The notes: generated by a model not told the origin, from the sequence alone. A stretch of DNA of 64,000 nucleotides from Candidatus Stramentimicrobium fermentans (GCA_012520575.1 JAAYOB010000023.1:62001-126000); one strand, 5' to 3'. Shown: positions 28,991-45,034, counted from the stretch's first letter. A program made the numbers and translations.

Positions 28991-29026
28991 AAAAAGGGGT
29001 TATACAGATGAAATAAGTATAACCCC
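28991..29026 (-). terminator. intrinsic terminator after the hnd cluster
   Basis: Minus strand: perfect 10-bp stem GTATAACCCC paired with GGGGTTATAC (28996-29026, 11-base loop), followed by TTTTT. It lies between the gene remnants downstream of hndC and the start of mobA, so it should end the hnd transcript before mobA-fdhD. Confidence 0.75.
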
Positions 29027-29065: not shown

Positions 29066-29140
29066 TTATCCTTCTCTTAAATATGCGTACCGGTATAAAG
29101 TAGCTCCAAAAAAGACCCCGCCAATTATATTTCCAAATAA
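29066..29140 (-). pseudogene. remnant of a formate/nitrite transporter (FNT/FocA) C-terminus
   Basis: Only the last 24 codons and stop of a membrane protein survive. They include GNIIGGVFFGATLYRYAYL, which matches the last transmembrane helix of FNT-family formate channels, where GNIIGG-type motifs and an aromatic-rich ending are typical. Two stop codons (29141-29146) stand immediately upstream in the same frame and no start codon is present. This is a decayed gene end, consistent with a former formate-metabolism locus. Confidence 0.65.
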
Positions 29141-29146
29141 TTATTA

Positions 29147-29301
29147 TGATATCTTCCTAACTTTAACAACACATACTTTGTATTCAGGCATTTTAGAAAT
29201 TAGGTCGGGGCCGCATTGGTCAACACAGGCTAGTTAATGCCTGCCTTTATTGCTGCCTCTAAAATAGTTGTATCAGGTTCTACTATTACCCTTCTTGCCA
29301 T
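29147..29301 (-). pseudogene. remnant of a 2Fe-2S N-terminal domain (FdhA/HydA-like)
   Basis: From the ATG at 29301 the frame reads MARRVIVEPDTTILEAAIK and stops after AGIN. A shift of frame continues with LACVDQCGPDLISKMPEYK and VCVVKVRK before TAA. The pattern of EPxTTILEAAxKAGI, then PDL, then a Cys-Val-Val-Lys-Val strand is that of the N-terminal 2Fe-2S ferredoxin domain of NuoG-like catalytic subunits (formate dehydrogenase alpha, or FeFe hydrogenase HydA/HndD). Usual cluster cysteines are disordered and the rest of the gene is gone. It lies just where hndABC operons usually have the catalytic subunit. The assignment is by eye and moderate. Confidence 0.5.
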
Positions 29302-29429
29302 CAATAGCAGCTTATACCGTTGGTGTGGTATTTGCTTCTCTTTTTGAATCTTTTGTTTTATTCATTCTTGACTTTCTAAAACCTGTAATTTTTGTTATAA
29401 GTTTTGTTCAACAATATTTATGAAAATTA

Positions 29430-31223
29430 TTAATGGCTCTTTATGGCATTAAATCGACAAGCATCGTAGCAAACCCCACATTTTATACAGATATTCTGGT
29501 CTATCTTATGAGGCTTTTTCTTTTCACCGGAAATAGCCTTAACCGGACACTTTATAGCACAAACCGTGCAACCGGTACATTTTTCCGGATTAATTTCAAA
29601 TTTTAATAGCGATTTACATACTCCTGCTCGGCATTTTTTATCCCTGATATGTTCGATGTACTCATCTCTAAAATATCTAAGGGTGGTTAGAATGGGATTG
29701 GGAGCAGTCTGTCCTAAGGCACAAAGAGAAGTGTCCTGTATGCGAACAGCTAATTCTTCTAAAACATCTAAGTCTTCCATTTTACCCTTCCCCTGACAAA
29801 TTTTAGTTAACATATCCAGCATAATCCTGGTACCTTCTCTACAGGGGGTACACTTACCACAGGATTCATCTTGAATAAAATTCATGAAATAGCGAGCAAT
29901 ATCGACCATGCAGGTATCTTCATCCATTACTACCAATCCACCCGAACCCATAATGGCCCCGAGCTCCTTTAATGATTCATAATCAATTCTTGCATCGAGA
30001 TGTTCTTCGGGAATACAGCCTCCTGATGGTCCCCCAATCTGCACTGCTCTTAATTTCTTATTGTTAGGGATTCCACCGCCAATATTGTAGACAATTTCTC
30101 TTAAAGTTATTCCTATGGGCACTTCAATAAGCCCCGTATTAGTAACATCTCCGGCAAGAGCAAATACCTTAGTCCCTTTGCTTTTTTCAGTTCCCATTGA
30201 AGCAAAATTTTCAGCTCCATGCAGAATTATGTATGGAATATTTGCTAATGTTTCCACATTATTTAAAACAGTTGGCAATCCAAACAAACCTTTATTGGCA
30301 GGGAAAGGTGGTCTGGGGCGAGGCTCTCCCCTTTTTCCCTCAATAGAGTGAATCAAAGCAGTCTCTTCGCCGCAAACAAATGCACCAGCACCTATTCTAA
30401 TTTCTACATCAAAATCAAAACCGGTATTTAATATATTCTTTCCTAATAGCTCATATTTTCTCATTTCGGCAATAGCAATCTCTAGCCTCTTAATTGCTAG
30501 GGGATATTCGGCACGGACATAGATATAGCCCTGATTGGCGCCAATAGCGTATCCTGCAATCATCATAGCCTCTAATACACTATAGGAGTCACCTTCTAGC
30601 ATACTGCGGTCCATAAAGGCACCCGGGTCACCCTCATCAGCATTACACAAAACATATTTTTGTTTACCGGGGGCTTTGGCAGCAAATTCCCATTTCAGTC
30701 CAGTGGGAAATCCGGCTCCCCCTCTACCTCTTAATCCTGATTTCTTTATCTCTTCAATCACCTCTTGTGGAGTCATCTCAGTCAAAACCTTCCCCAGTGC
30801 TACAAAGCCATCAGCCCCTATATAGTCATCTATCGCATTAACATCAATTATCCCACAATTTCTTCTTGCAATTGTCTTTTGCAGTTTAAAGAAATCAATT
30901 TCTTCCATAATAGATATTAATTCTCCCGTGTCCGGTTTTTTGTAAAAAAGGCGCTGTACAACTCTTCCTTTCAGAAGATGTTCTTGTACAATTTCCCGGG
31001 TGTCCTCCGGTGTAACCCGTTGGTAAAAAACCCCATCAGGATAAACAACCATTACAGGACCAAGTTCGCATATTCCCATACAACCTGTAGTAATTATTTC
31101 GACTTCTTTGTCCAATTTAGCTTCTTTTAGTGCCGCTTTAAATGCTTTTACCACTTCTACTGCACCATTTGACACACAAGAAGTGCCCTGGCAAATAAGA
31201 AGCTGGGTTCTTATATTATTCAT
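29430..31223 (-). CDS. hndC: NuoF-like NAD(P)H-binding flavoprotein subunit (HndC/HydB type)
   Basis: A 597-aa diaphorase subunit that moves electrons between NAD(P)H, FMN and Fe-S clusters. Domains in order: N-terminal thioredoxin-like 2Fe-2S (about 5-95, CQGTSCVSNG and TTGCMGICELGP), NADH/FMN domain (GLRGRGGAGFPTGLKWEF, NADEGDPGAFMDRS), SLBB, a 4Fe-4S motif ESCGKCTPCREGT, then two C-terminal ferredoxin clusters CTGCTVCAIKCP and CIKCGVCYDAC. All cluster cysteines look intact. The catalytic subunit gene expected next is reduced to a remnant, so the partner must be encoded elsewhere or is lost. Confidence 0.93.
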   Translation of the reverse strand: MNNIRTQLLICQGTSCVSNGAVEVVKAFKAALKEAKLDKEVEIITTGCMGICELGPVMVVYPDGVFYQRVTPEDTREIVQEHLLKGRVVQRLFYKKPDTGELISIMEEIDFFKLQKTIARRNCGIIDVNAIDDYIGADGFVALGKVLTEMTPQEVIEEIKKSGLRGRGGAGFPTGLKWEFAAKAPGKQKYVLCNADEGDPGAFMDRSMLEGDSYSVLEAMMIAGYAIGANQGYIYVRAEYPLAIKRLEIAIAEMRKYELLGKNILNTGFDFDVEIRIGAGAFVCGEETALIHSIEGKRGEPRPRPPFPANKGLFGLPTVLNNVETLANIPYIILHGAENFASMGTEKSKGTKVFALAGDVTNTGLIEVPIGITLREIVYNIGGGIPNNKKLRAVQIGGPSGGCIPEEHLDARIDYESLKELGAIMGSGGLVVMDEDTCMVDIARYFMNFIQDESCGKCTPCREGTRIMLDMLTKICQGKGKMEDLDVLEELAVRIQDTSLCALGQTAPNPILTTLRYFRDEYIEHIRDKKCRAGVCKSLLKFEINPEKCTGCTVCAIKCPVKAISGEKKKPHKIDQNICIKCGVCYDACRFNAIKSH

Positions 31224-31245
31224 AATTCAGATACTCCTTATTATA

Positions 31246-31743
31246 CTATTTATACTGTTCTAAAATTGCATCCAACATATTCGTGGTCAACCTGCCATGC
31301 ACATGATTGTCAATCATAATTACAGGCGCCATACCGCATGAGCCAAAACAGGGCTGACAACCTAAGGTAAACCTCATATCTTCCGTAGTTTCCCCTTCTT
31401 TGATGCCCAGTTTCTTTTCTAGTTCGTCCAATATTTTCTGGGCTCCTCTTACATAACAGGCCGTCCCCATACAAACAGTTATCGTGTGCCTGCCTATAGG
31501 ATTTGTTTTAAAATAAGAATAGAATGTTGCTACCCCAAATACTTCGCTCTCAGATAAATTCATTTCTTGCGCAATAAATTCCATAACCTCCGGAGGCAAG
31601 TATTTGAATAATTCTTGCGCTTTATATAAAGCAGGGATTAAGTAACCCCTTTTATCCTTGTTTTCCACAATAAATTTTTTTAATTGGTCGTACTTTTCCC
31701 GTGAGGGAGATGCTTTGGGTTCTACAATAGTCATTTTACTCAT
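31246..31743 (-). CDS. hndA: NuoE-like 2Fe-2S subunit (HndA/HydC type)
   Basis: A 165-aa NuoE-family subunit with a helical N-terminus (about 15-75) and a thioredoxin-fold 2Fe-2S domain. Cluster ligands are visible as CMGTACYVRG (C-x4-C) and CQPCFGSCGMAP (the CxxxC pair plus one extra Cys). It overlaps hndB by a few bases (ATGAG junction) and precedes hndC by 22, a tightly coupled set. In family members it relays electrons between NADH:FMN and the catalytic subunit. Confidence 0.93.
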   Translation of the reverse strand: MSKMTIVEPKASPSREKYDQLKKFIVENKDKRGYLIPALYKAQELFKYLPPEVMEFIAQEMNLSESEVFGVATFYSYFKTNPIGRHTITVCMGTACYVRGAQKILDELEKKLGIKEGETTEDMRFTLGCQPCFGSCGMAPVIMIDNHVHGRLTTNMLDAILEQYK

Positions 31744-32110
31744 TAGTTTTTCCTCTTTGAAATATATATTGTTCTACTACCTTGTTATTTAAAACATGTT
31801 CATCAAAAATAAGTCTAGCAGCTTCCACATCAACATTGTGATAAGTTACGGGAATTTGGTCTTCTGCATAGATATGTACCATGGGTTCCTGAACACAAAA
31901 ACCAAAACATCCTGAGGCAGTAACCACGATGTCATTTCTTTCACTCTTTAGGATCAAATTCAAGAACTCGTTCATTGTCTCTCTTGCTCCGGCAGCTATT
32001 CCACAGGTACCCATTCCAATAACAATTTTGATATTGTGCTTCCCCGATCTGAGTGCCAAATCTTTCTGCGCTTTGTCCCGCATAATCTTTAGTTCTTCTA
32101 GGTTTTTCAT
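31736..32110 (-). CDS. hndB: (2Fe-2S) thioredoxin-like ferredoxin, HndB type
   Basis: A 124-aa protein matching HndB, the second small Fe-S subunit of NADP-reducing/bifurcating hydrogenases. IVIGMGTCGIAAGARET and TASGCFGFCVQEPMV supply the CxnC...CxxxC ligands of a thioredoxin-like 2Fe-2S cluster, although the first half shows one Cys (GTC) rather than two. It overlaps hndA and lies 56 bases past the HATPase gene. Confidence 0.88.
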   Translation of the reverse strand: MKNLEELKIMRDKAQKDLALRSGKHNIKIVIGMGTCGIAAGARETMNEFLNLILKSERNDIVVTASGCFGFCVQEPMVHIYAEDQIPVTYHNVDVEAARLIFDEHVLNNKVVEQYIFQRGKTNE

Positions 32111-32166
32111 AAAAACTCCTCTCCAAATGTTACATTTATATTAAAATATGCCGATATCTGTTTGTA

Positions 32167-32703
32167 TTAAACAACATTTATGCTCTTCAACTCTTTTTTA
32201 GTAGTCTCATAAATATGCTTTCTTATCTGCAGATAATCTTTCGAACCTTCTTCTATCTCCTTTTGCAACCCTGAAAAGTCTAAAATCAAATGTTCTCTTC
32301 CCTCTTTTATTATAAAAATCTTCAGTCCGATATCAGGCCTAGACAGGAAGATGTCAGAGAAAGTCATAGCTAAATCTCCAAACGGTTTAGCATCAATATG
32401 GGAGGTATTTATTTTGAATTCCAGTTCAGTTCCTCCTGCCTCATCTTTTCTTCTTATTTTTAAATATCCTCCAGTGTCTTCTGCTGCCCTTTCTAACAAA
32501 GGTAGACCTAGCCCGATTCTCCTGGTTTTCCGGGTAGTTACAAAAGGATCCAGCACTTCCTGTCCGGTAATTCCTCTCCCATTATCAGAGATGCTGCAGA
32601 AAAAATGATTTTTATCATAAGCTATTTTTAATACAACTTCATTAGCTTCTGCATTAAAAGAATTTTCTAAAATATCGAAAATGTGGTCAGCTATATCCTT
32701 CAA
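32167..32703 (-). CDS. HATPase-domain protein of the hnd operon
   Basis: A 178-aa GHKL ATPase-like protein with N-box ILENSFNAEANEV, SDNGRGI and GLGLPLLERAAEDTGGYL. There is no histidine-kinase dimerisation region, so it resembles the stand-alone anti-sigma/ATPase proteins that accompany NuoEF-type hydrogenase operons. The frame is open further upstream (TTG at 32793), but TTG at 32703 is preferred: AGGAAGG lies 6 bases before it and homology begins there (KDIADHIFDILENS). The C-terminal 60 residues are family-specific. The role is probably regulatory; the partner is unknown. Confidence 0.75.
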   Translation of the reverse strand: MKDIADHIFDILENSFNAEANEVVLKIAYDKNHFFCSISDNGRGITGQEVLDPFVTTRKTRRIGLGLPLLERAAEDTGGYLKIRRKDEAGGTELEFKINTSHIDAKPFGDLAMTFSDIFLSRPDIGLKIFIIKEGREHLILDFSGLQKEIEEGSKDYLQIRKHIYETTKKELKSINVV

Positions 32704-32832
32704 TTTCGGCCTTCCTGAGAAAATTATGCAATGAATTAAAATCTTCTCTATCTGTATATTTTCTTGCACATCCCCCAAAATGGGCCAGGCCAACTAACTC
32801 ATTCATACTTTCCTATGAAGCATTTTGCCTTA

Positions 32833-33020
32833 TTAACCATACTCTCCTTCTTTAAGTCGATTGAGTAAAATAGAATGGACTACCGCATTATGGTCAGTAA
32901 TAGCAATCAGGTTTAGCCCACTCTGTTCTGCTTTTTTGGTATCCTTTGTGGTGACATTATATTTTCCCCACAAGCTGAAAGAGAAGAATGGATGTGCAAA
33001 TCAAGCTTGATTTTTATCAT
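32833..33020 (-). pseudogene. PHP-domain protein, frameshifted and truncated
   Basis: It starts at an ATG inside the end of the DRTGG gene and opens MIKIKLDLHIHSSLSACGEN, the HxH metal motif of PHP phosphoesterases. At a run of six A residues (T run at 32932-32937 on the plus strand) the frame breaks. One base more would restore it and continue with KKAEQSGLNLIAITDHNAVV, including the conserved TDHN. The gene then ends after about 60 codons where relatives have some 200. It is a pseudogene, or a real frameshift plus truncation; PHP proteins are usual neighbours of hnd/hyd genes. Confidence 0.8.
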
Positions 33021-33345
33021 CCTCTAATAATTTATAAATCATTCCACATAATTGAAATGAATTTTTATCGCTACTATACAAATTAATTCCTTCTTCTTTG
33101 GCTTTATCAGTCAATTCTTGATCAACAACAACATCATTACTAAAAACAATTGCTCGAATACCTTTGATTAGCGCAACAGCGATACTGTTTTTGTGAGCTT
33201 GAACGGTTATCCAGATACTTTCACTTTCGGCGTGCCCAATAACATCTGACATTAAGTCTCCACAATAACCTGCTTTAATCTCGTCATTGGAGCAGAAAAC
33301 TATTTCATTCAGATTACAACTCTGCACAATCTGACTTAGCTTCAT
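33001..33345 (-). CDS. DRTGG-domain protein
   Basis: A 114-aa protein resembling the stand-alone DRTGG-domain proteins found in FeFe-hydrogenase and hnd operons (LSQIVQSCNLNEIVFCSND, GYCGDLMSDVIGHA, ALIKGIRAIVFSND, KNSFQLCGMIYKLL). The family is thought to be regulatory or ligand-binding; nothing more specific is known. Its last codons overlap the start of the PHP pseudogene. It appears intact although the genes on both sides are broken. Confidence 0.78.
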   Translation of the reverse strand: MKLSQIVQSCNLNEIVFCSNDEIKAGYCGDLMSDVIGHAESESIWITVQAHKNSIAVALIKGIRAIVFSNDVVVDQELTDKAKEEGINLYSSDKNSFQLCGMIYKLLEDDKNQA

Positions 33346-33428
33346 CTTGAATCCTCCAAATAAACTATTGCTTTTAATACAGTACCTGTCTTTATAGAAG
33401 ATTCCCGTCTAATTTGTCAGCACGTTTT

Positions 33429-34180
33429 TTAGATTAGGCAACTCATTCCGGCACCAAATCCTAATACTCCAATCTGCTCAGAAGCTGCGGCAAAACCGGA
33501 TTTCAAAACCTTTTCTATATCATGAATACCTGGACTATAATCTACAGCAGCAATGATTATCCTATCTTACTCCACCTGTGAGATTGTATACCTTCCCAGA
33601 GAATGTGTACTGATATTTATATCAGCTCCGTAATAGATTATCGACGCTCTTTTTAGAATCTGTTTTTATCAATATTTAATTTTTGTAAATACTTTGCTTA
33701 TAACACTAGCAGGTCTACCAACATTATCGAAATCAGCCTTTCCTGCTTCAAATCGTAGTGGTTTTTGCTGAAATCGCCCATGGTAAGTATTTCAACTATT
33801 TTTGGGGAATGTGTATTTTCTGTTACGGGTAACTGCCCGTATTTATATTTTTCAAATTTTTTAATGGCAGAAACAGGAGAATGGTTCTGAGGGATAGCTA
33901 TGACATCTTTAGACATATAGTCTTTTATTTTCTCGGTAATATAGTTTTCGTCCAGAGTGGTTATTGCATCATCTAGACTAATGATGCCAATTACTTTTTT
34001 TGCTTCATATAAGATAGGCGTACCAGGCATTCTATTCTTCTTTAATGATTGTTGAATTTCACGAAAGGTGACGTCTTCACTAAGAAAAATGACTTTTCTG
34101 GTCATGGCATTTTCTATTTTTAATTGATAGATGAGCTCATGGGCTAAGGTCAATTTTTCTCCGGACTGTAAAATATTCAT
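33429..34180 (-). pseudogene. CBS-domain plus anti-sigma HATPase protein, degraded
   Basis: The first 160 codons (34180-33698) are open and encode two CBS repeats (IENAMTRKVIFLSEDVTF; IKDYMSKDVIAIPQNHSP). After a stop, homology to the RsbW-like HATPase half continues in pieces: KYLQKLNIDKN, then in another frame ILKRASIIYYGADINIS, an in-frame stop near 33570, and GVLGFGAGM just before a final stop at 33429. Intact relatives read through into DNGPGIPD and GFGAGMGLPNI. At least one frameshift, two internal stops and a missing C-terminus mark it as a pseudogene, although the CBS part could still be translated. Confidence 0.85.
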
Positions 34181-34531
34181 TAGTTTTTCTGTAATTAGAT
34201 GATTATCATATCGGTCTGCACAAAAGTCATTATATCAAGTAGTCGTATGGATAATATTTACACCATAAGCTTATTTTTGTTTATGATTATCGCTCGCTTA
34301 AGGGTAGTTTTTACGATTAAATAGTTTTGTGAAATATATCACAAAGTTAGCCGAAATATTGTACCATATGCCGATAAGACATGTCAAATTTATTAAGTAC
34401 AGTCTAAGTAAGTACCTACCTAATTTTGCACTAATCCTATATTTAATAGCAACCATTGATTGTTTTTTCTGTTAATATAACATTCTAGTGAAATAGTATT
34501 TTCTTTTTACGTATGTTCATTTACCGACAGA
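34181..34531. other. regulatory region between rex and the hnd cluster
   Basis: This is 351 AT-rich bases without a gene. It contains the Rex operator at 34327-34344 and a promoter-like pair overlapping it, listed separately. A second TATAAT-like hexamer (minus strand, 34234-34239) lacks a good -35. Nothing else was recognised. Confidence 0.55.
34316..34344 (-). promoter_or_regulatory. Rex operator overlapping a putative hnd-cluster promoter
   Basis: The palindrome TTGTGAAATATATCACAA (plus strand 34327-34344) has perfect TTGTGA/TCACAA half-sites, the established Rex consensus. On the minus strand its outer TTGTGA can act as a -35 (34344-34339), with a 17-base spacer and -10 TTTAAT (34321-34316). 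Rex bound at low NADH would thus occlude the promoter of the CBS/DRTGG/hnd genes. The rex gene itself is 190 bases upstream in the same direction, which supports the assignment. Confidence 0.8.
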
Positions 34532-35164
34532 TTAAAACAGATAATAAACCAATTTTTCTAATTCAATAGCAATATCTATATGTTTAATTGATACTTCCGG
34601 TGGGTGCTTAATGTTGATAGGGGCAAAATTAAGTATAGACCTAACCCCTCCTCCTATCATCTTATAAGCTACTTCTTGAGCGGATTCGGCAGGAACCGTT
34701 ATAATACCGATGTTTATTTTCTGATCTTTTAAACATTTTTCCATTTTCTGAATATCTTGTATTTTAATATTATCTACTTTAGTACCTATCTTAGAAACAT
34801 CGTTATCGAAAACTAATTTAATATTAAAACCCCTTTTAGAAAAACCCTTGTAACGAAGGAGGGCGGTGCCGATATTGCCAACACCAACCAGGGCGACATC
34901 CCATTTTTGGCCAGCCCTCATTACTTCTTTTAATTGTTCAGTTAATCCGAATAGAGGATAGCCTACTCCTCTCTTCCCAAAGGCACCAAAATAGGAAAAG
35001 TCTTTTCTAATCTGACTGGAATTAATGCCGGTTATCTCTGACAACTTAGTAGAGGATATGGTAGGTAGATCGGTATCCTGCGCAAATTCAAGTAAAGACA
35101 GTAAAGTCCTATAATAAATTGGTAATCGACCAATAGTTGCTTGCGGAACATGTTTTTTTCTAAT
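34532..35164 (-). CDS. rex: redox-sensing transcriptional repressor Rex, no canonical start codon
   Basis: Rex senses NADH/NAD+ and represses fermentative and respiratory genes. The winged-helix domain is fully encoded: RKKHVPQATIGRLPIYYRTL, KLSEITGINSSQIRKDFSYF, and KRGVGYPL. The Rossmann domain follows with VALVGVGNIGTALL and an Asp-containing FDNDVSKIG. The first ordinary start in frame is TTG at 35044, which would delete most of the DNA-binding domain. The homologous region begins near an ATT (35164) or ATC (35167) codon, with an in-frame TGA just upstream. An AGAGG plus ATG at 35177 is in another frame. A rare AUU start or a one-base lesion are the options. Confidence 0.85.
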   Translation of the reverse strand: MRKKHVPQATIGRLPIYYRTLLSLLEFAQDTDLPTISSTKLSEITGINSSQIRKDFSYFGAFGKRGVGYPLFGLTEQLKEVMRAGQKWDVALVGVGNIGTALLRYKGFSKRGFNIKLVFDNDVSKIGTKVDNIKIQDIQKMEKCLKDQKINIGIITVPAESAQEVAYKMIGGGVRSILNFAPINIKHPPEVSIKHIDIAIELEKLVYYLF

Positions 35165-36210: not shown

Positions 36211-36657
36211 ATGTCTAAAAATTTTCTTTTAGGAATAGGTAATTCTTTACGGACCGATGATGGTGCCGGCTCTTTTGTTGCTCAACATTTCCAGCACCAT
36301 AACTGGAGAGTTATAGATGGTCAGACAGCCCCAGAAAACTATGCCTCAGTAATAAAAAAATTCCGTCCAGACCTTTTGATAATTATCGATGCTGTGGAAA
36401 TGAACCTTAGAGCAGGTACTATAAGGCTAATTCCTTTAGAAAAAATTGCTTCTTTCCAATTTTCCACTCATTATTTGCCTTTATCCTATTTGGTGGAATA
36501 TGTGGCTCCTTATTGCTCAAATATAATACTAATAGGCATACAACCATTATCTACTGAATTGGGTGAAAATTTAAGTGAACCTGTACTAAAAGCATGTTAT
36601 CTGCTTATTGACCTATTGCAAGATAACAGACTAAGCTCCATTCCAATTTTAACCTGA
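36211..36657 (+). CDS. HycI-type hydrogenase maturation endopeptidase
   Basis: A 148-aa aspartic-type maturation protease of the HyaD/HycI family, which removes the C-terminal extension of the NiFe large subunit once nickel is inserted. LGIGNSLRTDDGAGSFVAQH (first metal ligand Asp16 or 17), LLIIIDAVEM (Asp60) and FSTHYLPLSYL (His87) give the nickel-sensing residues. STH-LPLS is the pattern of the group-4 (HycI) branch, fitting the mbh large subunit at 38.4-39.6 kb with its cleavable 32-residue tail. It is the only plus-strand protein gene in the window, convergent with the mbh operon. The ATG at 36211 lacks an obvious ribosome binding site. Confidence 0.9.
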   Translation: MSKNFLLGIGNSLRTDDGAGSFVAQHFQHHNWRVIDGQTAPENYASVIKKFRPDLLIIIDAVEMNLRAGTIRLIPLEKIASFQFSTHYLPLSYLVEYVAPYCSNIILIGIQPLSTELGENLSEPVLKACYLLIDLLQDNRLSSIPILT

Positions 36658-36777: not shown

Positions 36778-37185
36778 TTATTTAACAATTAATTCCGGGG
36801 CATGCCGGTCCTCATTTGCTAACAAAAAATCTTCAGACATACTCAGCACATTGACCGGGCAAATATCATTACACTGTGAACAAAAGATACAGCGGTCAAT
36901 TCTAATCTTTATTTTTTTATCTTCAGGTAAAAATTCAATCGCCCGAGAAGGACATACCTTTATACATAAGCGGCACCCGATACATTTTTCCCGATCATAG
37001 GTTATTTTTCCTCTAAATTTTTCCGGAACTGTAACCGGTGCATTAATCTCAGCTTCACCATCCTGTACTTTATTGATAAGCTCGGTAACGGTTATTTTAC
37101 CGGGATGGTGTTTCACCGGAAAACAATTTGTAGTCGGTTTGCGTATCAGTTGTTTTATTAATTCCCATATTAACGGGGTCGGCAT
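36778..37185 (-). CDS. mbhN: membrane-bound hydrogenase 2x[4Fe-4S] subunit (MbhN, NuoI-like)
   Basis: A 135-aa ferredoxin-like subunit with two complete 4Fe-4S motifs, CIGCRLCIKVCP (C68, 71, 74, 78) and CIFCSQCNDICP (C99, 102, 105, 109). In Mbh it accepts electrons from ferredoxin and passes them to MbhJ. The ATG at 37185 is chosen because AAGAGGTG lies 7 bases upstream. It is the last gene of the operon, separated from mbhM by an unusually long 200-base spacer with a hairpin. Confidence 0.92.
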   Translation of the reverse strand: MPTPLIWELIKQLIRKPTTNCFPVKHHPGKITVTELINKVQDGEAEINAPVTVPEKFRGKITYDREKCIGCRLCIKVCPSRAIEFLPEDKKIKIRIDRCIFCSQCNDICPVNVLSMSEDFLLANEDRHAPELIVK

Positions 37186-37215
37186 AATCAAACACCTCTT
37201 TCGTCTGCACTGTGT

Positions 37216-37247
37216 GCCATCAGAGTAAAAACTTCCACACTGATGGC
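37216..37247 (-). repeat. hairpin in the mbhM-mbhN spacer
   Basis: A perfect 8-bp inverted repeat GCCATCAG/CTGATGGC with a 16-base loop stands about 30 bases ahead of the mbhN start. No T tract follows on the minus strand. All other mbh genes overlap or are nearly contiguous, so this spacer may set mbhN expression by processing or attenuation. Confidence 0.45.
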
Positions 37248-37386
37248 TTGCAGCTTTAAATTTTTTGTTGTAAAAGCATATTTACGGTATAGATGTTAAA
37301 AACACCAAAATTAATTTTTCATGAACTATATTCTTTAGTAAAACACTAAGATTATCTTCTTGTAAACGATACTATCCGGATTAATC

Positions 37387-38394
37387 TTATATCAGATAGT
37401 CAACTGCCATAAACAATAAACCGATTAGCCCTATTACCGATAAAAAGATTAAATAGGCCGAGGAGGCTTGATCTATCTTCAATCGTGCCAAAGCAACACG
37501 GATAAAGGTTACTTCAAAGAATAGAACCACAAATAATTTAACAAAAAAGAATAGTATGTCCATAATATAGGCCGGGAATCCGCTTAAAGAGAGTAATGGT
37601 GATATATTATAAGGAAAAAATAACACTATAGTCAGGGTTCCCATTACCACCATTTTAACCGCATTGGTCAGTTCAAATAAAGCCAAGTTACGACCGGAAT
37701 ACTCCACCAGGACACCACCGGCTAATTCCGTTTCCGCCTCAGGTGTATCGAAAGGTACAACGGATAACTCAGCCGGAGTAACTATAACCAAGGTAAATAG
37801 CAATAGTATGGCACCTAAGAAACCGAGTGGGCCAACTATGCCCCAGATAGGATTAGTGCTGAACGATGCTAGTGAAAAGACTTTTAGTCCGGGAAAGGCT
37901 AGATTCAGGCGCCAGCCTAAAACAATAACGGTGGTCACTAAGGGTAGCTCATAACTCATCAACAGGACCATCTCTCTTTGTGCTCCGATGCTGGCATAAG
38001 AAGAGCCAGAGGAAAACCCTCCTGTCACCAGAGCAACGGCAGGCATAGCAAGTAAATAGACAATCAGTATTAAATCACCGGAATTGGCAAACAGTGCCGG
38101 TATAGGACCAAATGGGAGATAGAATAAAATGGTTATTGTAGATACTAATGCCAGAACCGGTGCACCGTTAAAAATCCAGGGAACTGCATTTTTAGGAACA
38201 ATATTCTCTTTGATCATCAGCTTAAAAAAGTCCAAAAAAGGCTGTCTGATAGGAGGCCCTACACGAGATTGCAACAAGGCTGCCAATTTACGGTCAATAC
38301 CTTTATAAAACAGCCCTATTATTACCCCTAATACTGCAATTAGCAACGTACCTAAGATTTTTAAAATAAAAATAAAGATACTGCTTACGCTCAT
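37387..38394 (-). CDS. mbhM: membrane-bound hydrogenase membrane anchor subunit (MbhM, NuoH-like)
   Basis: A 335-aa NuoH/HycD family integral membrane protein with about eight helices. Conserved loops are YKGIDRKLAALLQSRVGPP near residue 30 (the KxxAxxQxRxGP pattern), GSSYASIGAQREMVLLMSYE, and PFDTPEAETELAGGVLVEYSG with its Glu-rich quinone-loop equivalent. It links the hydrogenase module to the antiporter module. It overlaps mbhL by 4 bases. Confidence 0.95.
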   Translation of the reverse strand: MSVSSIFIFILKILGTLLIAVLGVIIGLFYKGIDRKLAALLQSRVGPPIRQPFLDFFKLMIKENIVPKNAVPWIFNGAPVLALVSTITILFYLPFGPIPALFANSGDLILIVYLLAMPAVALVTGGFSSGSSYASIGAQREMVLLMSYELPLVTTVIVLGWRLNLAFPGLKVFSLASFSTNPIWGIVGPLGFLGAILLLFTLVIVTPAELSVVPFDTPEAETELAGGVLVEYSGRNLALFELTNAVKMVVMGTLTIVLFFPYNISPLLSLSGFPAYIMDILFFFVKLFVVLFFEVTFIRVALARLKIDQASSAYLIFLSVIGLIGLLFMAVDYLI

Positions 38395-39614
38395 TTCATC
38401 ATCCTCCTGGTTTTAGCAATACTCAATTTTATTAAATCTTCCCTGGTAAGCACCTGTTGTTGATTGGTCTTGGATTCTACCAGTGTTACCCTATCCATGC
38501 AACCTATGCAGGGGTCAATAGATGCTGTGACAATAGGGATATCGGCTATTTCTTGGCCCTGCAGCATGGGTATCCAGGACATCAGATTGTTATATGTTGG
38601 GGCTCTCGCTCTCCAAACTTCCGGATTCTCTGATTCATTTAATTTTATATAATGGATGGCTTCACCGCGAGGAGCTTCATGTCTGCCCACTCCTTCACCC
38701 TTTGCTTTTTTTAAAACAGCAAGCAGTTTCGCCAGTTTAGGCTCTGAAACAATATCCCCCTCAGGCAAGTTATCTAAACAGTATTCGATAATCTCTACTG
38801 ATTGAGCAACTTCCAATATTCTAACTATAATACGGTCAAAAACATCTCCTTTAACTTCGCCGGTGAAGAAATCCGGTGTTATAGCTTTGATATCCATATC
38901 GGCATAGGCAGAATAAGGTTGGTCCTGTCTGATATCTTTTTTGATTCCCGACGCTCTTGCAGTAGGTCCCACGCTGGCTAAATGTAAAGCCTGCTCATAA
39001 GTCAAAATACCCACATTCTTAGTTCTTATGGCAATACTGGGGTCTTTTAGAAAGACATTTTCTAAAGTCTGATAAGTCTCTTTATAATAATCCAGAGTCT
39101 TTCTGATACGAGGTAAGTGCTCTTCGGTAATATCTCTTCTAACCCCTCCAATCATAAACATGCCATAGTTAATCCGGTTACCGGTAAGCAATTCCAGGAG
39201 GTCCAGCACCTCTTCCCGTACTTTCCAGGAAAGGTATAATACTGAATTAAATCCTAACTCCTCTGCAGCTATTCCGGCCCACAATATATGGGACTGTATT
39301 CTTTCTAATTCAGCAATGATAACTCTGATATATTCCGCCCTGGGCGGCACTTCAATGCCGGCGGCATTTTCTACGGCACGGCAAAAGGCATAGGGATGTG
39401 AGGCAGAACATATACCGCATATTCGCTCAGCCAGATAAATTATCTGGATAATGTTCCTATTTCTGCCCATAAATTCGATGCCTCGATGATTATCGCCGGG
39501 GACCAGGTCAACCCTTTCAATTCTTTCACCGGTTATCTCAAAATTGAAGGTCATCGGTTCCGCCAATGAGGGATGAATGGGACCAATAGGTATTTTATAG
39601 GTAGTTTTACTCAA
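38391..39614 (-). CDS. mbhL: membrane-bound [NiFe] hydrogenase large subunit (MbhL)
   Basis: A 407-aa group 4 NiFe large subunit. Both nickel-binding motifs are present: L1 ERICGICSASH (C66, C69) and L2 DPCIGCMDR (C369, C372), so it is a true hydrogenase rather than a NuoD-type subunit. After Arg375 a 32-residue tail remains, the expected substrate of the HycI-type protease at 36211. It reduces protons with electrons from MbhJ. Both flanking genes are within 12 bases. Confidence 0.97.
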   Translation of the reverse strand: MSKTTYKIPIGPIHPSLAEPMTFNFEITGERIERVDLVPGDNHRGIEFMGRNRNIIQIIYLAERICGICSASHPYAFCRAVENAAGIEVPPRAEYIRVIIAELERIQSHILWAGIAAEELGFNSVLYLSWKVREEVLDLLELLTGNRINYGMFMIGGVRRDITEEHLPRIRKTLDYYKETYQTLENVFLKDPSIAIRTKNVGILTYEQALHLASVGPTARASGIKKDIRQDQPYSAYADMDIKAITPDFFTGEVKGDVFDRIIVRILEVAQSVEIIEYCLDNLPEGDIVSEPKLAKLLAVLKKAKGEGVGRHEAPRGEAIHYIKLNESENPEVWRARAPTYNNLMSWIPMLQGQEIADIPIVTASIDPCIGCMDRVTLVESKTNQQQVLTREDLIKLSIAKTRRMMK

Positions 39615-39625
39615 TTGTAATCACC

Positions 39626-40141
39626 TCAGCTTTCCTGTTGAACGAGTTCGTCCAAGCCTTTTTGTTCTTTTCTAAGAGGAAAGACGTCTTTGGGGAAGTC
39701 TTCCGGTAAAAAGATATTACGCATTTCCGGAAGCCCTATAAATTCTACTCCGAACATCTCTTTGATTTCCCTCTCAGTTGTTTGAGCTCCAGGAAGTAAA
39801 TCAGTTATACTATCTATAGATGGCTTTTCTCTTTCTAAACTGACTTTTAGGTTGAGTGAAATTTCTTTAAACTTTTCTCCATAAAAAAGGGTAAAGAGAT
39901 AGGTCAAATCAATACTTTCCCCAGTATCATTACCAACAATTATGGCGATGTGGGGATAGTGCAGACTCATTAATAATTTTACCGTATCTCTGAATTTCTC
40001 TTTTTTTACTTCTAACCAGATATTATAAAACTCTTCCTCTTTAATTCCCGCTTTTCCAGTTGCGATATGACTATCTAAAATATTGTCTTTTAAATTTTCT
40101 TTTAAAAATGATAATAAATTTTTGGGATTTAAAAACTCCAT
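39626..40141 (-). CDS. mbhK: membrane-bound hydrogenase subunit MbhK (NuoC-like)
   Basis: A 171-aa NuoC-like 30-kDa-subunit homologue: the segment LLPGAQTTEREIKEMFGVEF, then FLPEDFPKDVFPLRKEQ, is the family signature. It has no metal site and acts as a structural partner of MbhL in the peripheral arm. The N-terminal 80 residues are divergent. It is in the standard mbhJ-mbhK-mbhL order. Confidence 0.93.
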   Translation of the reverse strand: MEFLNPKNLLSFLKENLKDNILDSHIATGKAGIKEEEFYNIWLEVKKEKFRDTVKLLMSLHYPHIAIIVGNDTGESIDLTYLFTLFYGEKFKEISLNLKVSLEREKPSIDSITDLLPGAQTTEREIKEMFGVEFIGLPEMRNIFLPEDFPKDVFPLRKEQKGLDELVQQES

Positions 40142-40169
40142 ATTATCACCTGAGCCCTCTCATTATATT

Positions 40170-40637
40170 TTAAGCATTAACCTCTGCTATTTTCTTTTCA
40201 ATGTCAGCACCAGAGCCTCTTAACCTTTCTAACTTCAACCATGCTTGTAAAACACCGTTTATGATGGCTTCCGGCCTTACCGGGCAACCGGGAACATAGA
40301 CATCCACCGGTATATGTTTGTCTACCGGACCAACTACATTATAGGAATCATAAAACACTCCTCCACTGGTTCCACATGCTCCCACTACGATTACCGCTTT
40401 AGGGTCAGGAGTCTGCTCGTATATCAATTTTAATCTGGGCAGCATTTTCCTATTTACAGGGCCTGTTACCAGTAAAACATCGGCATGCCTGGGAGTTCCC
40501 ACTAACTTGATGCCAAATCTTTCCACATCATATCTAGGTGTCAAGAGAGCTACTATCTCTATATCACACCCATTGCAAGAACCGGTATTTAAATGGAATA
40601 CCCATAAGGAACGATCGAAATAGTTATCTAATTTCAT
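40170..40637 (-). CDS. mbhJ: membrane-bound hydrogenase small subunit (MbhJ, NuoB-like)
   Basis: A 155-aa NuoB/HycG-like subunit carrying the proximal 4Fe-4S cluster. Ligands are visible as SCNGC (C21, C24), GACG (C88) and PGCP (C118). It passes electrons to the NiFe site of MbhL. No twin-arginine signal, as expected for a cytosol-facing group 4 enzyme. Confidence 0.96.
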   Translation of the reverse strand: MKLDNYFDRSLWVFHLNTGSCNGCDIEIVALLTPRYDVERFGIKLVGTPRHADVLLVTGPVNRKMLPRLKLIYEQTPDPKAVIVVGACGTSGGVFYDSYNVVGPVDKHIPVDVYVPGCPVRPEAIINGVLQAWLKLERLRGSGADIEKKIAEVNA

Positions 40638-40641
40638 TATA

Positions 40642-40983
40642 CTAACTCACCCCAACTATAATAAAGATAATAGCCATTATTAAGATAATCCAGCCGCTGT
40701 AATCGTTAATGCTTCCGGTATGCATCTTGACCAGAGGCTCATAATAATTTTTTAAAGCCTCGGTAAATCCCCAGTAGATATGGCTTGCTCCAACATGAGA
40801 ATCTTCTTTACTTATTTCCGGGTTACCGGAAAGAAAGGGTTTAGTCTGGTTGGTACCTTTCTTATATTTCTCTTCACCTTCATTCCGTAAATAGATAACC
40901 CCTGCTCCGATTATCAGTACGGCTATGAACCATATTAGTGCATTCCAGTGACCACTCCCTGTTTCCAATAAGCCAATATTCAT
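40642..40983 (-). CDS. mbhI: membrane-bound hydrogenase subunit MbhI
   Basis: A 113-aa protein with two membrane helices (about 15-32 and 93-112) separated by a hydrophilic loop. By position between mbhH (MrpD-like) and mbhJ, and by the segment SHIYWGFTEALKNYYEPLVKMH, it corresponds to MbhI, which bridges the antiporter and hydrogenase modules. Its sequence is divergent, so the assignment leans on gene order. Confidence 0.82.
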   Translation of the reverse strand: MNIGLLETGSGHWNALIWFIAVLIIGAGVIYLRNEGEEKYKKGTNQTKPFLSGNPEISKEDSHVGASHIYWGFTEALKNYYEPLVKMHTGSINDYSGWIILIMAIIFIIVGVS

Positions 40984-40984
40984 A

Positions 40985-42553
40985 TTACATTCCTCCTAAA
41001 ATTGTTGAGGTGTAGTGAGATTGATTAATTAAAGCCATCACAGCAGGATGCACAATATATTTAACAATGAGATTGGGGAATAGTCCAAAAAAGATAATGA
41101 TGATGCTTAAAACCGCCATAGCGAACACCATACTCTTAGGTACTTCCTGTACTGACTTATACTGCTCCAGCTGCGGTCCTAAAAATGCACTATGGAATAT
41201 TTTTACAAAAGAAGCCAGAGTTAAAATACTGACCAGCATGGCAATAATGGCCAGCAGCGGATTGAACTGATAGACCGATTCATAGATAATCAATTTGGAG
41301 GCAAACCCATTGAATGGCGGAATCCCGGCTATAGCTGCTGCTCCAATAATATAAAATAAAGTAGTATAAGACATATTATGAGCTAATCCGCCCATTTTAT
41401 TCAAATCTCTGGTCCCGGTCCTATAAAATAAAGCACCTGCTGTTAAAAACAAGAGCCCCTTATACAAGGCATTATTAATAATATGAAAGATTCCGCCCTC
41501 CATTGCTTTTATCCCATAGCTTGCTAATGCTGCCGGATTGGCTAAAACTGCTAGCCCTACTCCCACTCCTAAAAGCATATACCCGGTCTGAGAAATAGAG
41601 TGATAGGCCATCAGGCGCTTAATATCCTTCTGTATAACGGCCATGGTAACACCGATAAACATGGAGAGGACTCCTAAAATAATAAGAATCCAACCCACGG
41701 TTACCGTGTTTAAAGTAACATTATAGAGCGAAAAGATAATCCTAAAAAGTGCATATAGACTGGCTTGGCTGGTGGCAACTAAAACCACAGTAATTGCTGA
41801 TGGTGCTTCAGAATAGGCATCAGGAGTCCACATATGCATGGGTACCGCCCCGGATTTCATAGCCAACATGGTAAGAAAAAGTATCAAGGCCATCTTATCC
41901 AATTTAGTAAATTGCATAAAACTCGCAATGGCCGCCATGTTTAAAGTGCCGTATTGTCCATAGAACAACCCGATAGCAAATAATACCATCAGCGCAGAAA
42001 TAGAGCTGATTACCATATATTTGATGGCTGCCTCTGCCGGCTCTCCATTGAAAGTACTGCGAAAACTAATCAGGGCAACCGAGGAAATAGAAGAAATTTC
42101 AAAAAAAACAAAGAAGTTAAATATGTCACCGGTTAATTCCATTCCAAACATACTGGTAGCCAAAAGAAGAAGGAGAGTATAATATTTATCCACTCCGCTA
42201 TAATCTTCCATATAAGAGATAGAGTAAACAGCAGCCAAAAAAGAAATTACGGCTGTTATTAAAGCCATAAATATTCCCATAGCATCTATCTGGAAAATGA
42301 TACGGATGGGAAAAGTATATCCGGATGGCAATGCCAGTCCCGCCTCACCTCCCCCAAAGACATAGACAATGGTACCATTGGTGAGAATCTGTCCGGCCAT
42401 AAGAAGGGTTAAGAGCAGAGTTACTCCAAATACAGCAGAAACAAACCAGCTAATCTTCTTGTAATTAAACCGACCCAATATTGGTGTGACAAAAGCCGCT
42501 AACAGGGGTAGGGCAATTACCAGAGCAGGTGCATGCATCAAAATCCCATTCAT
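40985..42553 (-). CDS. mbhH: membrane-bound hydrogenase antiporter-like subunit MbhH (MrpD/NuoL-like)
   Basis: A 522-aa polytopic protein (about 14 helices) of the proton-conducting NuoL/M/N and MrpA/D family. It shows FNFFVFFEISSISSVALISF (helix-5 Glu), MWTPDAYSEAPSAITVVLVA, and KRLMAYHSISQTGYMLLG (key Lys and His). It is one of the ion-translocating parts. It overlaps mbhG by 4 bases. Confidence 0.95.
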   Translation of the reverse strand: MNGILMHAPALVIALPLLAAFVTPILGRFNYKKISWFVSAVFGVTLLLTLLMAGQILTNGTIVYVFGGGEAGLALPSGYTFPIRIIFQIDAMGIFMALITAVISFLAAVYSISYMEDYSGVDKYYTLLLLLATSMFGMELTGDIFNFFVFFEISSISSVALISFRSTFNGEPAEAAIKYMVISSISALMVLFAIGLFYGQYGTLNMAAIASFMQFTKLDKMALILFLTMLAMKSGAVPMHMWTPDAYSEAPSAITVVLVATSQASLYALFRIIFSLYNVTLNTVTVGWILIILGVLSMFIGVTMAVIQKDIKRLMAYHSISQTGYMLLGVGVGLAVLANPAALASYGIKAMEGGIFHIINNALYKGLLFLTAGALFYRTGTRDLNKMGGLAHNMSYTTLFYIIGAAAIAGIPPFNGFASKLIIYESVYQFNPLLAIIAMLVSILTLASFVKIFHSAFLGPQLEQYKSVQEVPKSMVFAMAVLSIIIIFFGLFPNLIVKYIVHPAVMALINQSHYTSTILGGM

Positions 42554-42897
42554 CCTCTTAACCTCCTTATCTCATCTGTTTCTATGGTGCCATATTGTTT
42601 ATAAAGAATCATGGCGATAGATAGAACCAGAGCTGTAGTTGCTACACCGATTACGATGCTGGTCAGGCATAGCGCTTGTGGTGTGGGTAGTACCATTTTG
42701 ACCCCCTCCGGCGCCATAGTATAAATAGGGGCCACCCCGCCCTTGCGATATCCTAAGGTAATCAGAAATAAATTGACACCGCCTTCAAGTAAAGTTAAGC
42801 CTATAGCAATTTTAATTAAATTCTTTTTAAACATTAGGGAATACATCCCTAATGCAATTAGCATAATCACAGCAACAAAGGGGAAATTTCCTATCAT
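42550..42897 (-). CDS. mbhG: Mrp-type antiporter subunit MbhG (MrpC/NuoK-like)
   Basis: A 115-aa, three-helix MnhC/NuoK-like subunit. IAIGLTLLEGGVNLFLITLGY contains the conserved membrane Glu of this family, and ALCLTSIVIGVATTALVLSIA the third helix. It overlaps mbhH and abuts mbhF. Confidence 0.94.
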   Translation of the reverse strand: MIGNFPFVAVIMLIALGMYSLMFKKNLIKIAIGLTLLEGGVNLFLITLGYRKGGVAPIYTMAPEGVKMVLPTPQALCLTSIVIGVATTALVLSIAMILYKQYGTIETDEIRRLRG

Positions 42898-42898
42898 A

Positions 42899-43378
42899 TT
42901 ATGATTTCTCCTTATTCTGTATAATTTCAGCGGCAGCTGACATAGTCAAAACTATCACTCCTAATGCTGCTAAAACCTCTAAACCAACAGCAATATTCAT
43001 CAAGGCTATAGTACCGCTTGTATTTAAATCACCCGGGTTCACTCCGATAACAGTCGGAGAGCCGAATAAACCTCCGCTGTTAGCTACAATATTGTAAAAA
43101 TAAGTTGCACTTATTCCTAAAAAGCCAAACGAACCAAAAAGGATCAGACCGGTACTCTCTATCACAGAAAGTAAGTCTTTCGCTATATATTGTTGTATCA
43201 CCTCGGTACCGTAGGTAACCAACAACAAGGCAAAGGCAGAGGCGACGATTGCTCCGCCTTGGAATCCTCCTCCTGGTGAGAGATGACCATGGGCAATAAC
43301 ATAAAACCCAAAGACAACTATAAAACCAAAAATTATATTCGTCATAGTCCTTACAATGCGTGACATTTCACCTATCAT
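42899..43378 (-). CDS. mbhF: Mrp-type antiporter subunit MbhF (MrpB-like)
   Basis: A 159-aa MnhB-domain protein with four helices: MTNIIFGFIVVFGFYVIAHG, LSPGGGFQGGAIVASAFALL (the PGGGFQGG signature), and later helices near 75-95 and 125-150. It overlaps mbhE by 4 bases. Confidence 0.94.
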   Translation of the reverse strand: MIGEMSRIVRTMTNIIFGFIVVFGFYVIAHGHLSPGGGFQGGAIVASAFALLLVTYGTEVIQQYIAKDLLSVIESTGLILFGSFGFLGISATYFYNIVANSGGLFGSPTVIGVNPGDLNTSGTIALMNIAVGLEVLAALGVIVLTMSAAAEIIQNKEKS

Positions 43379-43641
43379 TTTGCCACCTCCCTGAACAATG
43401 CTACAATACCTATAACAGCGGTGAACAATACCGTCCCTTCGCCCAAGGTATCGAAACCTCGATAATCAAAAACTATGGAAGTTACTACATTATTTGATGA
43501 CGCTTGCACCTGAGCATTTTCTATAAAATAATCATCCATTTCACTCCTTGCAGGTTCTCCGAAGGGTCTCATATCAATGGCAGCCATAAACATAAAAGCT
43601 GCAAAAAATATGAAAGCAAGAATAAAAATTGGTTTTTTCAT
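43375..43641 (-). CDS. mbhE: membrane-bound hydrogenase subunit MbhE
   Basis: An 88-aa protein with an N-terminal helix (about 4-20) and a C-terminal helix (about 68-85). SIVFDYRGFDTLGEGTVLFT is the conserved MrpA-C-terminal/MbhE signature. Position between mbhD and mbhF confirms it. Confidence 0.92.
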   Translation of the reverse strand: MKKPIFILAFIFFAAFMFMAAIDMRPFGEPARSEMDDYFIENAQVQASSNNVVTSIVFDYRGFDTLGEGTVLFTAVIGIVALFREVAK

Positions 43642-43651
43642 TTTTCACTCC

Positions 43652-43894
43652 TCACCTTCTAGTTGCCCTAACCGCAAAAATATAAATTGCCGTAGATAAT
43701 GCAGCACCAATCGCTGCTTCTGCTATAGCTACATCCGGTGCATGCAGGAGATAGTACTCTAGAGCTAGAAGTAGACTGGCAGCTGCCAGAGCAATAACCG
43801 AGGACATTAAATCACGCAAGGTAACTGCCAGAAATGCCGCTATCACCAAGGTAACCAATACTGCAATATGAGCAAAACTAACTAATGGGCTCAT
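43652..43894 (-). CDS. mbhD: membrane-bound hydrogenase subunit MbhD (DUF4040)
   Basis: An 80-aa three-helix protein; SLLLALEYYLLHAPDVAIAEAAIGAALSTAI-like residues 38-68 contain the APDVAIAEAAIG motif of the DUF4040/MrpA C-terminal domain with its membrane acidic residues. It starts within the end of mbhC (4-base overlap). Confidence 0.93.
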   Translation of the reverse strand: MSPLVSFAHIAVLVTLVIAAFLAVTLRDLMSSVIALAAASLLLALEYYLLHAPDVAIAEAAIGAALSTAIYIFAVRATRR

Positions 43895-44256
43895 TTTAAA
43901 TCAGCCTCCTCTAATTCGTCTATTACTGCCGGTTTAGGCATAACCCCGCTGCGGTGTGCAGCCCGGGCAATAGCATGAGCACCGGTAGGGTTGGTAATCA
44001 GCAAGCAGATTAAGGCTACAGTAGTGTGCAGCGCCATAACTAAAAATTTTGAATCACCGCTGGCTTTCCAGAAATAAAAAGCGAAAATAATCACAGACAT
44101 TGAAGTAAATATAGAGCCAAAAGTAGTGCATTTAGTGGTAGCATGCATTCTGGTATAAACATCAGGAAATTTTAAGAGGCCAACAGAACCTAATCCGTTG
44201 AAAAATATCCCTATTAGTAAAAATACGAATATAATTATAGTTAAAATGATTATCAT
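43891..44256 (-). CDS. mbhC: Mrp-type antiporter subunit MbhC (MrpG-like)
   Basis: A 121-aa MnhG/PhaG family protein with three helices. GSVGLLKFPDVYTRMHATTKCTTFG (about 24-48) is the family signature, here within LLKFPDVYTRMHA. It overlaps both neighbours by 4 bases. Confidence 0.94.
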   Translation of the reverse strand: MIIILTIIIFVFLLIGIFFNGLGSVGLLKFPDVYTRMHATTKCTTFGSIFTSMSVIIFAFYFWKASGDSKFLVMALHTTVALICLLITNPTGAHAIARAAHRSGVMPKPAVIDELEEADLK

Positions 44257-44528
44257 TTATCTTTTGCCCTCCTCTCGATGAATTTAGCAATATAGAGAGT
44301 AGTAATATATGATAATAAGGCGTAGACTATTGCTACATCAATATAGATTATTTCTTCAAAGGCTGCGCCAAATAATATCATAGCTGCTACAACATAAGTA
44401 TTAATGGTATCTAAGGCTATCACTTTATCAGGAATGGTTGGTCCGACAATTAAACGAAATAACGGTAATATAATGAAGGCAGCAATCAGTGCACCGGTGA
44501 ATAAAAAGAAGCTCATTAATTGAGTCAT
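44253..44528 (-). CDS. mbhB: Mrp-type antiporter subunit MbhB (MrpF-like)
   Basis: A 91-aa, three-helix MnhF/PhaF protein: LFRLIVGPTIPDKVIALDTI is the signature. The ATG at 44528 is chosen because it overlaps the mbhA stop (ATGA) and has GAGGAGG 8 bases upstream. The frame is open 13 codons further, but that part is not homologous. Confidence 0.93.
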   Translation of the reverse strand: MTQLMSFFLFTGALIAAFIILPLFRLIVGPTIPDKVIALDTINTYVVAAMILFGAAFEEIIYIDVAIVYALLSYITTLYIAKFIERRAKDK

Positions 44529-45034
44529 TCTGCTATCCTCCTCGCCCATGCGCAAAAAGTACCGCAAATATCTTCTACAGAAGGGTTCAAATTAGTAACG
44601 TTAATCCAGTGAATATAAAGGTCATTATTATTTCCATCTATATCTACACTTAATGTTCCGGGAGTAAGGGTAATTGAGTTTGCCAATAGGGTTATAGCGG
44701 CATCGCTCTCTAATTGTGGAGATATTTTTACTATTCCCGGGTTAATCTTACCGGTAATAACCCGGTAGGCAACATCAAGATTTGCTGTGACCAAGGCGGG
44801 CAAGAATACCGCAATTAAATAATACAAAAAAAGGGCCCATCTCACCGGATTTAAAAGACGGTAATCCTTTTTTTGAAATAATACCCTGCTGGCTAAAGCA
44901 GAAGCAATTAGGGCAACAATTATACCGGTGAACACCTCGCACTTACTCCACAGGGCTAATATTTCTCCTGAGCTGGCAGCTATGAATAAATAAGCAAGGA
45001 AGGTCAAAAAAAACGTGGCCAAAAAAGGAATCAT
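44525..45034 (-). CDS. mbhA: Mrp-type antiporter subunit MbhA (MrpE-like)
   Basis: A 169-aa MnhE-family protein: N-terminal helices, VRWALFLYYLIAVFLPALVTANLDVAYRVITG, then the conserved periplasmic/cytosolic beta part ANSITLTPGTLSVDIDGN and LYIHWINV. It is the first gene of the 14-gene mbh operon; GAGGTG lies 5 bases before the ATG. Confidence 0.94.
   Translation of the reverse strand: MIPFLATFFLTFLAYLFIAASSGEILALWSKCEVFTGIIVALIASALASRVLFQKKDYRLLNPVRWALFLYYLIAVFLPALVTANLDVAYRVITGKINPGIVKISPQLESDAAITLLANSITLTPGTLSVDIDGNNNDLYIHWINVTNLNPSVEDICGTFCAWARRIAE

Follow-up and report, generated by a model that had tools for sequence, protein, structure and literature searches.

Operons for electron-bifurcating or NAD(P)-linked formate dehydrogenases (EBFdh) are described in JS1 Atribacterota (PMC6776118), and the operon carried by relatives of the species studied here resembles them in combining NuoE- and NuoF-like subunits with an FdhA that has a NuoG-like N-terminus. 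The source species differs in being without the catalytic subunit and the channel, so that FdhA is not encoded with hndABC. The HydABC hydrogenases of A. woodii (7q4v, 8a5e), T. kivui (8a6t) and T. maritima (7p5h) are also close, as HndC corresponds to HydB, HndA is NuoE-like, and the HydA of the source species can be matched to HydA1 along almost all of its length; the differences are that hydA lies on a different contig, that there is an additional HndB subunit and that no known maturases are found. In the HytA-E/FdhA system of Clostridium autoethanogenum, going by its citation in PMC12905484, hydrogenase and formate dehydrogenase share one module, as would be the case in the relatives that have both enzymes, but that system is known as a complex and the present one from genes, and in the source species fdhA is gone. 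The Sporomusa-type Nfn enzyme StnABC (PMC7483475) has NuoE- and NuoF-like subunits with a GltD-like domain, as do the same-genus relatives, whereas in these it is the NuoF subunit, not a NuoG-like one, to which GltD is fused, and the source species is without GltD.

The window, meaning the whole 64 kb stretch that was analyzed (G000:C50:62001-126000), belongs to the draft genome G000 (1.58 Mb, 98% complete, 50 contigs). The relatives comprise genomes of the same genus (G001-G004), family (G005-G009), order (G010-G023) and phylum (G024-G040). The traits of the group match those in PMC6776118 and PMC11227167, by which it would be assigned to Atribacterota/JS1.

Broken and retained genes of the operon

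The operon of G001 and G002 runs in the order rex, DRTGG1, CBS/ATPase (310 aa), DRTGG2, PHP (259 aa), HATPase, hndB, hndA, hndC-GltD (1009 aa), fdhA (923-924 aa), focA (290 aa), mobA and fdhD. G003 has the same order, with DRTGG1 missing from the part that was read; the contig of G004 begins within hndC and carries an intact 3′ part of the operon. Intact fdhA (923-924 aa) and focA occupy this locus in all four same-genus genomes, and the CBS/ATPase and PHP genes are intact in all three whose contigs reach the operon start. The existence of the same arrangement with intact frames in close relatives shows that the decay is specific to the source species, in which the locus has the following features (dN/dS values, here for the G000 branch, are rough).

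28996-29026, minus strand: hairpin followed by a U run, the likely operon terminator (fold z-score -2.8 for the stretch; G001 likewise has a hairpin and T run)
29072-29134, minus strand: focA remnant, last 21 aa of the formate channel (tblastn, 71-81% identity)
29144-29206, minus strand: fdhA 3′ remnant, last 20 aa (29206-29147) and stop (tblastn, 70-75% identity)
29221-29343, minus strand: fdhA 5′ remnant, 2Fe-2S N-terminus, aa ~7-47, ~41 codons (tblastn with G001/G002 FdhA)
29430-31223, minus strand: hndC, intact, HydB-type NuoF subunit with two C-terminal [4Fe-4S] motifs (Pfam; A. woodii HydB, E 1e-266)
31246-31743, minus strand: hndA (NuoE-like), intact (Pfam PF01257; 69-75% identity to orthologs of G001-G003, G006 and G008)
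31736-32110, minus strand: hndB, intact, 2Fe-2S ferredoxin-like subunit (71-74% identity to same-genus orthologs; dN/dS 0.08)
32167-32703, minus strand: HATPase gene, intact, 178 aa (63-70% identity to same-genus orthologs; dN/dS 0.06)
32684-33011, minus strand: PHP pseudogene remnant (tblastn with the intact 259-aa G001 protein)
33001-33345, minus strand: DRTGG-type gene, second copy, intact, 114 aa (64-70% identity to same-genus orthologs; dN/dS 0.05)
33357-34180, minus strand: CBS/anti-sigma-type ATPase pseudogene (tblastn with the intact 310-aa G001 protein)
34327-34344, no strand: predicted Rex operator TTGTGATATATTTCACAA, a perfect palindrome and the sole perfect match in G000
34358-34387, minus strand: sigma-70-type operon promoter TTGACA-18-TACAAT (11/12 matches; G001, G002 and G009 have a similar promoter in this position)
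34532-35125, minus strand: rex, redox-sensing repressor, intact (frame open over the full length of the relatives' protein; Rex structures, E 1e-41)

The initial annotation had described the CBS/anti-sigma gene as broken by a frameshift and stops and the PHP gene as frameshifted and truncated, and both descriptions are borne out. In the former, aa 1-136 are intact at 34180-33773, followed by a deletion of ~35 codons with a change of frame and by several stops within 33767-33357. The break is probably recent relative to the G000 branch, since the first half of the gene still has a branch dN/dS of 0.09. The PHP remnant consists of the gene start (33011-32916), a frameshifted piece (32937-32866) and scraps down to 32684, with the remainder lost. 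DRTGG1, which precedes the CBS gene in G001 and G002 (two of the three same-genus genomes covering the operon start), is absent from the window. Open frames remain for hndC (597 aa), hndA, hndB, HATPase, the second DRTGG gene and rex, in agreement with the annotation for the five genes it had called open, except that its HATPase frame extended to 32793 and likeness to relatives begins at 32703. In the conserved N-terminal stretch of rex (window 35044-35140), as in G001, G002 and G009, there is no clear ATG, GTG or TTG start.

The position after hndC had been read as a 2Fe-2S N-terminal remnant followed by the end of a formate channel, and the fragments do match FdhA and FocA by tblastn. The catalytic partner lost from the operon is thus, as judged from these fragments, the 2Fe-2S formate dehydrogenase FdhA and not a hydrogenase; of the recent loss of a "formate dehydrogenase or FeFe-hydrogenase" proposed earlier, the first half holds, and a hydA remnant 3′ of hndC is ruled out by the same matches. 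A search with FdhA of 12 relatives and G000 gives a long fdhA match in every one of the relatives and none in G000, where matches are limited to a shorter formate dehydrogenase, the second of the genome, and to the N-terminal domain shared with HydA. Two G006 contigs with partial fdhA were considered as two genes, which an exact 127-base overlap rules out. No direct repeats are found around the fdhA/focA junctions, and repeat-mediated deletion is therefore rejected.

The decay is local and confined to one operon. Gene-by-gene comparison shows the 64 kb window to be colinear with pieces of G001 contigs, and about 40 other G001 genes that match it contain no stops and nearly all align over most of their length, the hypF match being fragmentary. 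Beside the operon lie an intact hydrogenase maturation protease gene (window 36211-36657) and intact group-4-type membrane NiFe hydrogenase genes (window 36781-45000).

The HndABC module and its control region

The only full hndC among those listed for G000 is the one in the window. In its product a NuoF core is preceded by a thioredoxin-like 2Fe-2S domain and followed by two additional [4Fe-4S] sites, as expected of a bifurcating-type HydB, and A. woodii HydB aligns with it from one end to the other. It also contains QIGGPSGGC and with it the GGPSG motif, which in the SLBB region is diagnostic of bifurcating beta subunits (PMC7311640). Further residues considered for this type are, in T. maritima HydB numbering, 232 (A or E), 234 (M) and 367 (F); hndC has EAM and F in the expected regions, as located by region and not by that numbering. 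The hndC of same-genus relatives has a fused C-terminal GltD-type domain, which in G000 and G006 is replaced by the two [4Fe-4S] motifs as in HydB (window 29430-31223; L003:363-2174). In FastTree trees of hndBAC, hydA and flanking genes, the hndBAC genes of G000 pair with those of G006 with support of 0.97-0.995, and hydA and the flanking genes do not; the HydB-type module was therefore either shared by descent and then lost in the same-genus relatives, or exchanged. As the HydB-type module of G006 still precedes an intact fdhA, loss of the GltD domain alone did not cost fdhA.

Constraint on the retained genes was estimated with a two-ratio codon model (G000 branch vs background), whose values are rough, with synonymous sites near saturation, and whose assumed tree may be wrong for hndBAC because these genes pair G000 with G006; dN/dS is 0.057 for hndC against a background of 0.028 (p=0.01), 0.077 for hndB, 0.064 for HATPase and 0.049 for DRTGG2, and the value for hndA, 0.56, is high but unstable. 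Purifying selection is clear for hndC and hndB. The high hndA estimate and the mild rise in hndC could signal relaxed constraint. The branch value for hydA, 0.039, equals its background.

Upstream of the operon, a perfect Rex site occupies the same place in G001, G002, G003, G007 and G009, and a genome-wide search of G000-G003 finds no other perfect site in any of them. A simple promoter scan gives 18 sites against the 22 expected from shuffled sequence, thus no excess, and the promoter assignments therefore rest on position and conservation.

hydA and the H-cluster maturases

G000 has one hydA, intact on contig C25. Its product has all three H-cluster motifs and the NuoG-like N-terminus expected of HydABC, scores 898.9 bits against NCBIfam NF040763, "NADH-dependent [FeFe] hydrogenase", where the cut-off is 765, and matches structures of bifurcating HydA1. 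It is the only complete NADH-type catalytic partner found in G000. As hndBAC is on C50, the genes are not adjacent as they would be in HydABC; in G007-G009 hydA follows the hnd genes. G004 has fdhA and no hydA was found, the reverse of G000. On C25, hydA is near wtpABC-type tungstate transport genes, and the possibility that the contig is foreign is not supported, its composition fitting the genome.

In G001, G002, G003 and G006, the stand-alone hydA is preceded by a Moco (molybdenum/tungsten) riboswitch (74-84 bits).

L131:10158-10292, L132:6824-6958, L133:8343-8477 and G002:C54:1716-1850: Moco riboswitches before hydA in the four relatives

The hydA leader of G000 (L107:7455-7596) retains much of the pairing and scores 30.4, below the 36-bit threshold. 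The first strand of this weak element coincides with TTGTGCAATATTTCACAA, a Rex-like operator with one mismatch that adjoins the hydA promoter, and no Rex-like site is found at the hydA promoters of G001, G003 and G006. Genome-wide, G000 has as many one-mismatch Rex sites as matches to a control pattern (5 vs 5), and the claim of Rex control of hydA therefore rests on position. Seven Moco riboswitch matches occur in G000, more than in any of the 40 relatives searched, despite the loss of a Mo/W enzyme.

Within G000-G024 (25 genomes, covering the own order and the neighboring family f3), HydG has no match at all and neither HydE nor HydF reaches the family cut-off in any genome, although hydA is present in 11 of the 25 with H-cluster motifs conserved wherever the sequence is complete. 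The other 16 genomes of the set, of sister families in the phylum, have HydG in 12, HydE in 13 and HydF in 13 cases at cut-off. Missing contigs are unlikely to cause so consistent an absence. G000 itself is without HydE, HydF or HydG over cut-off, a departure from HydABC, and an active H-cluster in its HydA is for this reason predicted at most; either HydA is matured by unknown proteins or it has another role. A literature search found no paper that describes missing maturases in this group.

Possible partners of HndABC

The locus was formerly an operon under Rex control that encoded a formate dehydrogenase based on the HndABC electron-transfer module, which we take, from knowledge of the family, to exchange electrons with NADH and ferredoxin and with a NuoG-like catalytic partner. 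In the source species deletions have taken nearly all of fdhA and focA, and DRTGG1, CBS/ATPase and PHP have been deleted or have decayed; the promoter, Rex operator, rex, hndB, hndA, hndC, DRTGG2 and HATPase are retained. Most likely, HndABC now works with the HydA of C25, the two forming an NADH/ferredoxin-linked HydABC enzyme with H2 rather than formate as its product, a use that the HydB-type C-terminus of hndC fits, and at high NADH Rex would derepress both transcripts, the hndBAC operon and hydA. That HndABC of G000 now serves HydA is, in our judgment, reasonably likely, the physical pairing of the two being presumed. As only HydA remains as a partner, the expected product is H2, and with intact group-4-type hydrogenase genes nearby, making H2 would be no novelty for the cell. 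The initial annotation had the diaphorase part "retained or reassigned"; this is supported by the purifying selection, the conserved promoter and Rex operator and the intact hydA, and "reassigned" may overstate the case because G007-G009 already encode hnd genes and hydA together. HydA is probably an old partner of HndABC. To judge by the gene content of the relatives, a single HndABC module may be able to serve either FdhA or HydA, or the two together.

Among the other readings, it is unlikely that the operon is being lost in its entirety, with hndBAC, now without a job, the last part to break. CBS, PHP, DRTGG1, fdhA and focA no longer exist as intact genes, the dN/dS of hndC is twice background, hndA looks relaxed, and the hnd proteins of G000 have diverged from those of its same-genus relatives more than flanking proteins have. 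Yet hndBAC contains no stop or frameshift across ~890 codons while its neighbors are riddled with them, its pN/pS is 0.13-0.26, the promoter and Rex operator are conserved, and an intact candidate partner is present in HydA.

Transfer of HndABC to the second formate dehydrogenase (G000:C34, ~691 aa) is improbable. This enzyme, intact in G000 and most same-genus relatives, would as a partner explain the retained fdhD and mobA, which are probably kept for it in any event. But it is without the N-terminal iron-sulfur domain of FdhA and HydA, its likeness to FdhA is confined to the Mo/W part, its gene adjoins, by eye, two HdrB- and HdrC-like genes, and it coexists with the complete operon in the same-genus relatives. 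We give equally little credence to an unrecognized partner, or to HndABC acting alone as a diaphorase: HndABC-like modules do serve varied catalytic subunits, e.g., a NiFe hydrogenase (7t2r), but among the FdhA-domain matches of G000, to which the search extended, only HydA has the N-terminal domain. Sequencing or assembly error, for which the draft state of the genome (50 contigs) could speak, is a very remote prospect, as several independent deletions (some large), stops and frameshifts fall in neighboring genes of one operon that is intact in relatives and the rest of the colinear window is essentially clean.

The reading in which HndABC serves HydA can be tentatively extended to the order, as a doubtful proposal: HndABC would be common to a Mo/W formate dehydrogenase and an iron-only hydrogenase, with cofactor supply choosing between them (Moco riboswitch for stand-alone hydA, Rex for the fdh operon), and G000 would have fixed the choice through loss of fdhA and replacement of the hydA riboswitch by Rex, its HydA working without HydE, HydF and HydG.

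For a catalytic gene to decay while the modules next to it are kept is nothing unusual in evolution, and the components belong to known families. As far as the literature was searched, the loss of the partner, the apparent change in hydA control and the missing maturases are new, and the search yielded no publication linking hydrogenase operons with DRTGG and PHP. Should the hydrogenase prove active, an order apparently devoid of HydE, HydF and HydG would directly challenge present knowledge of H-cluster assembly. With related genomes that combine one and the same electron-transfer module with formate dehydrogenase only, with both enzymes or with hydrogenase only, the group offers a natural experiment in how a modular redox enzyme swaps its terminal catalyst.
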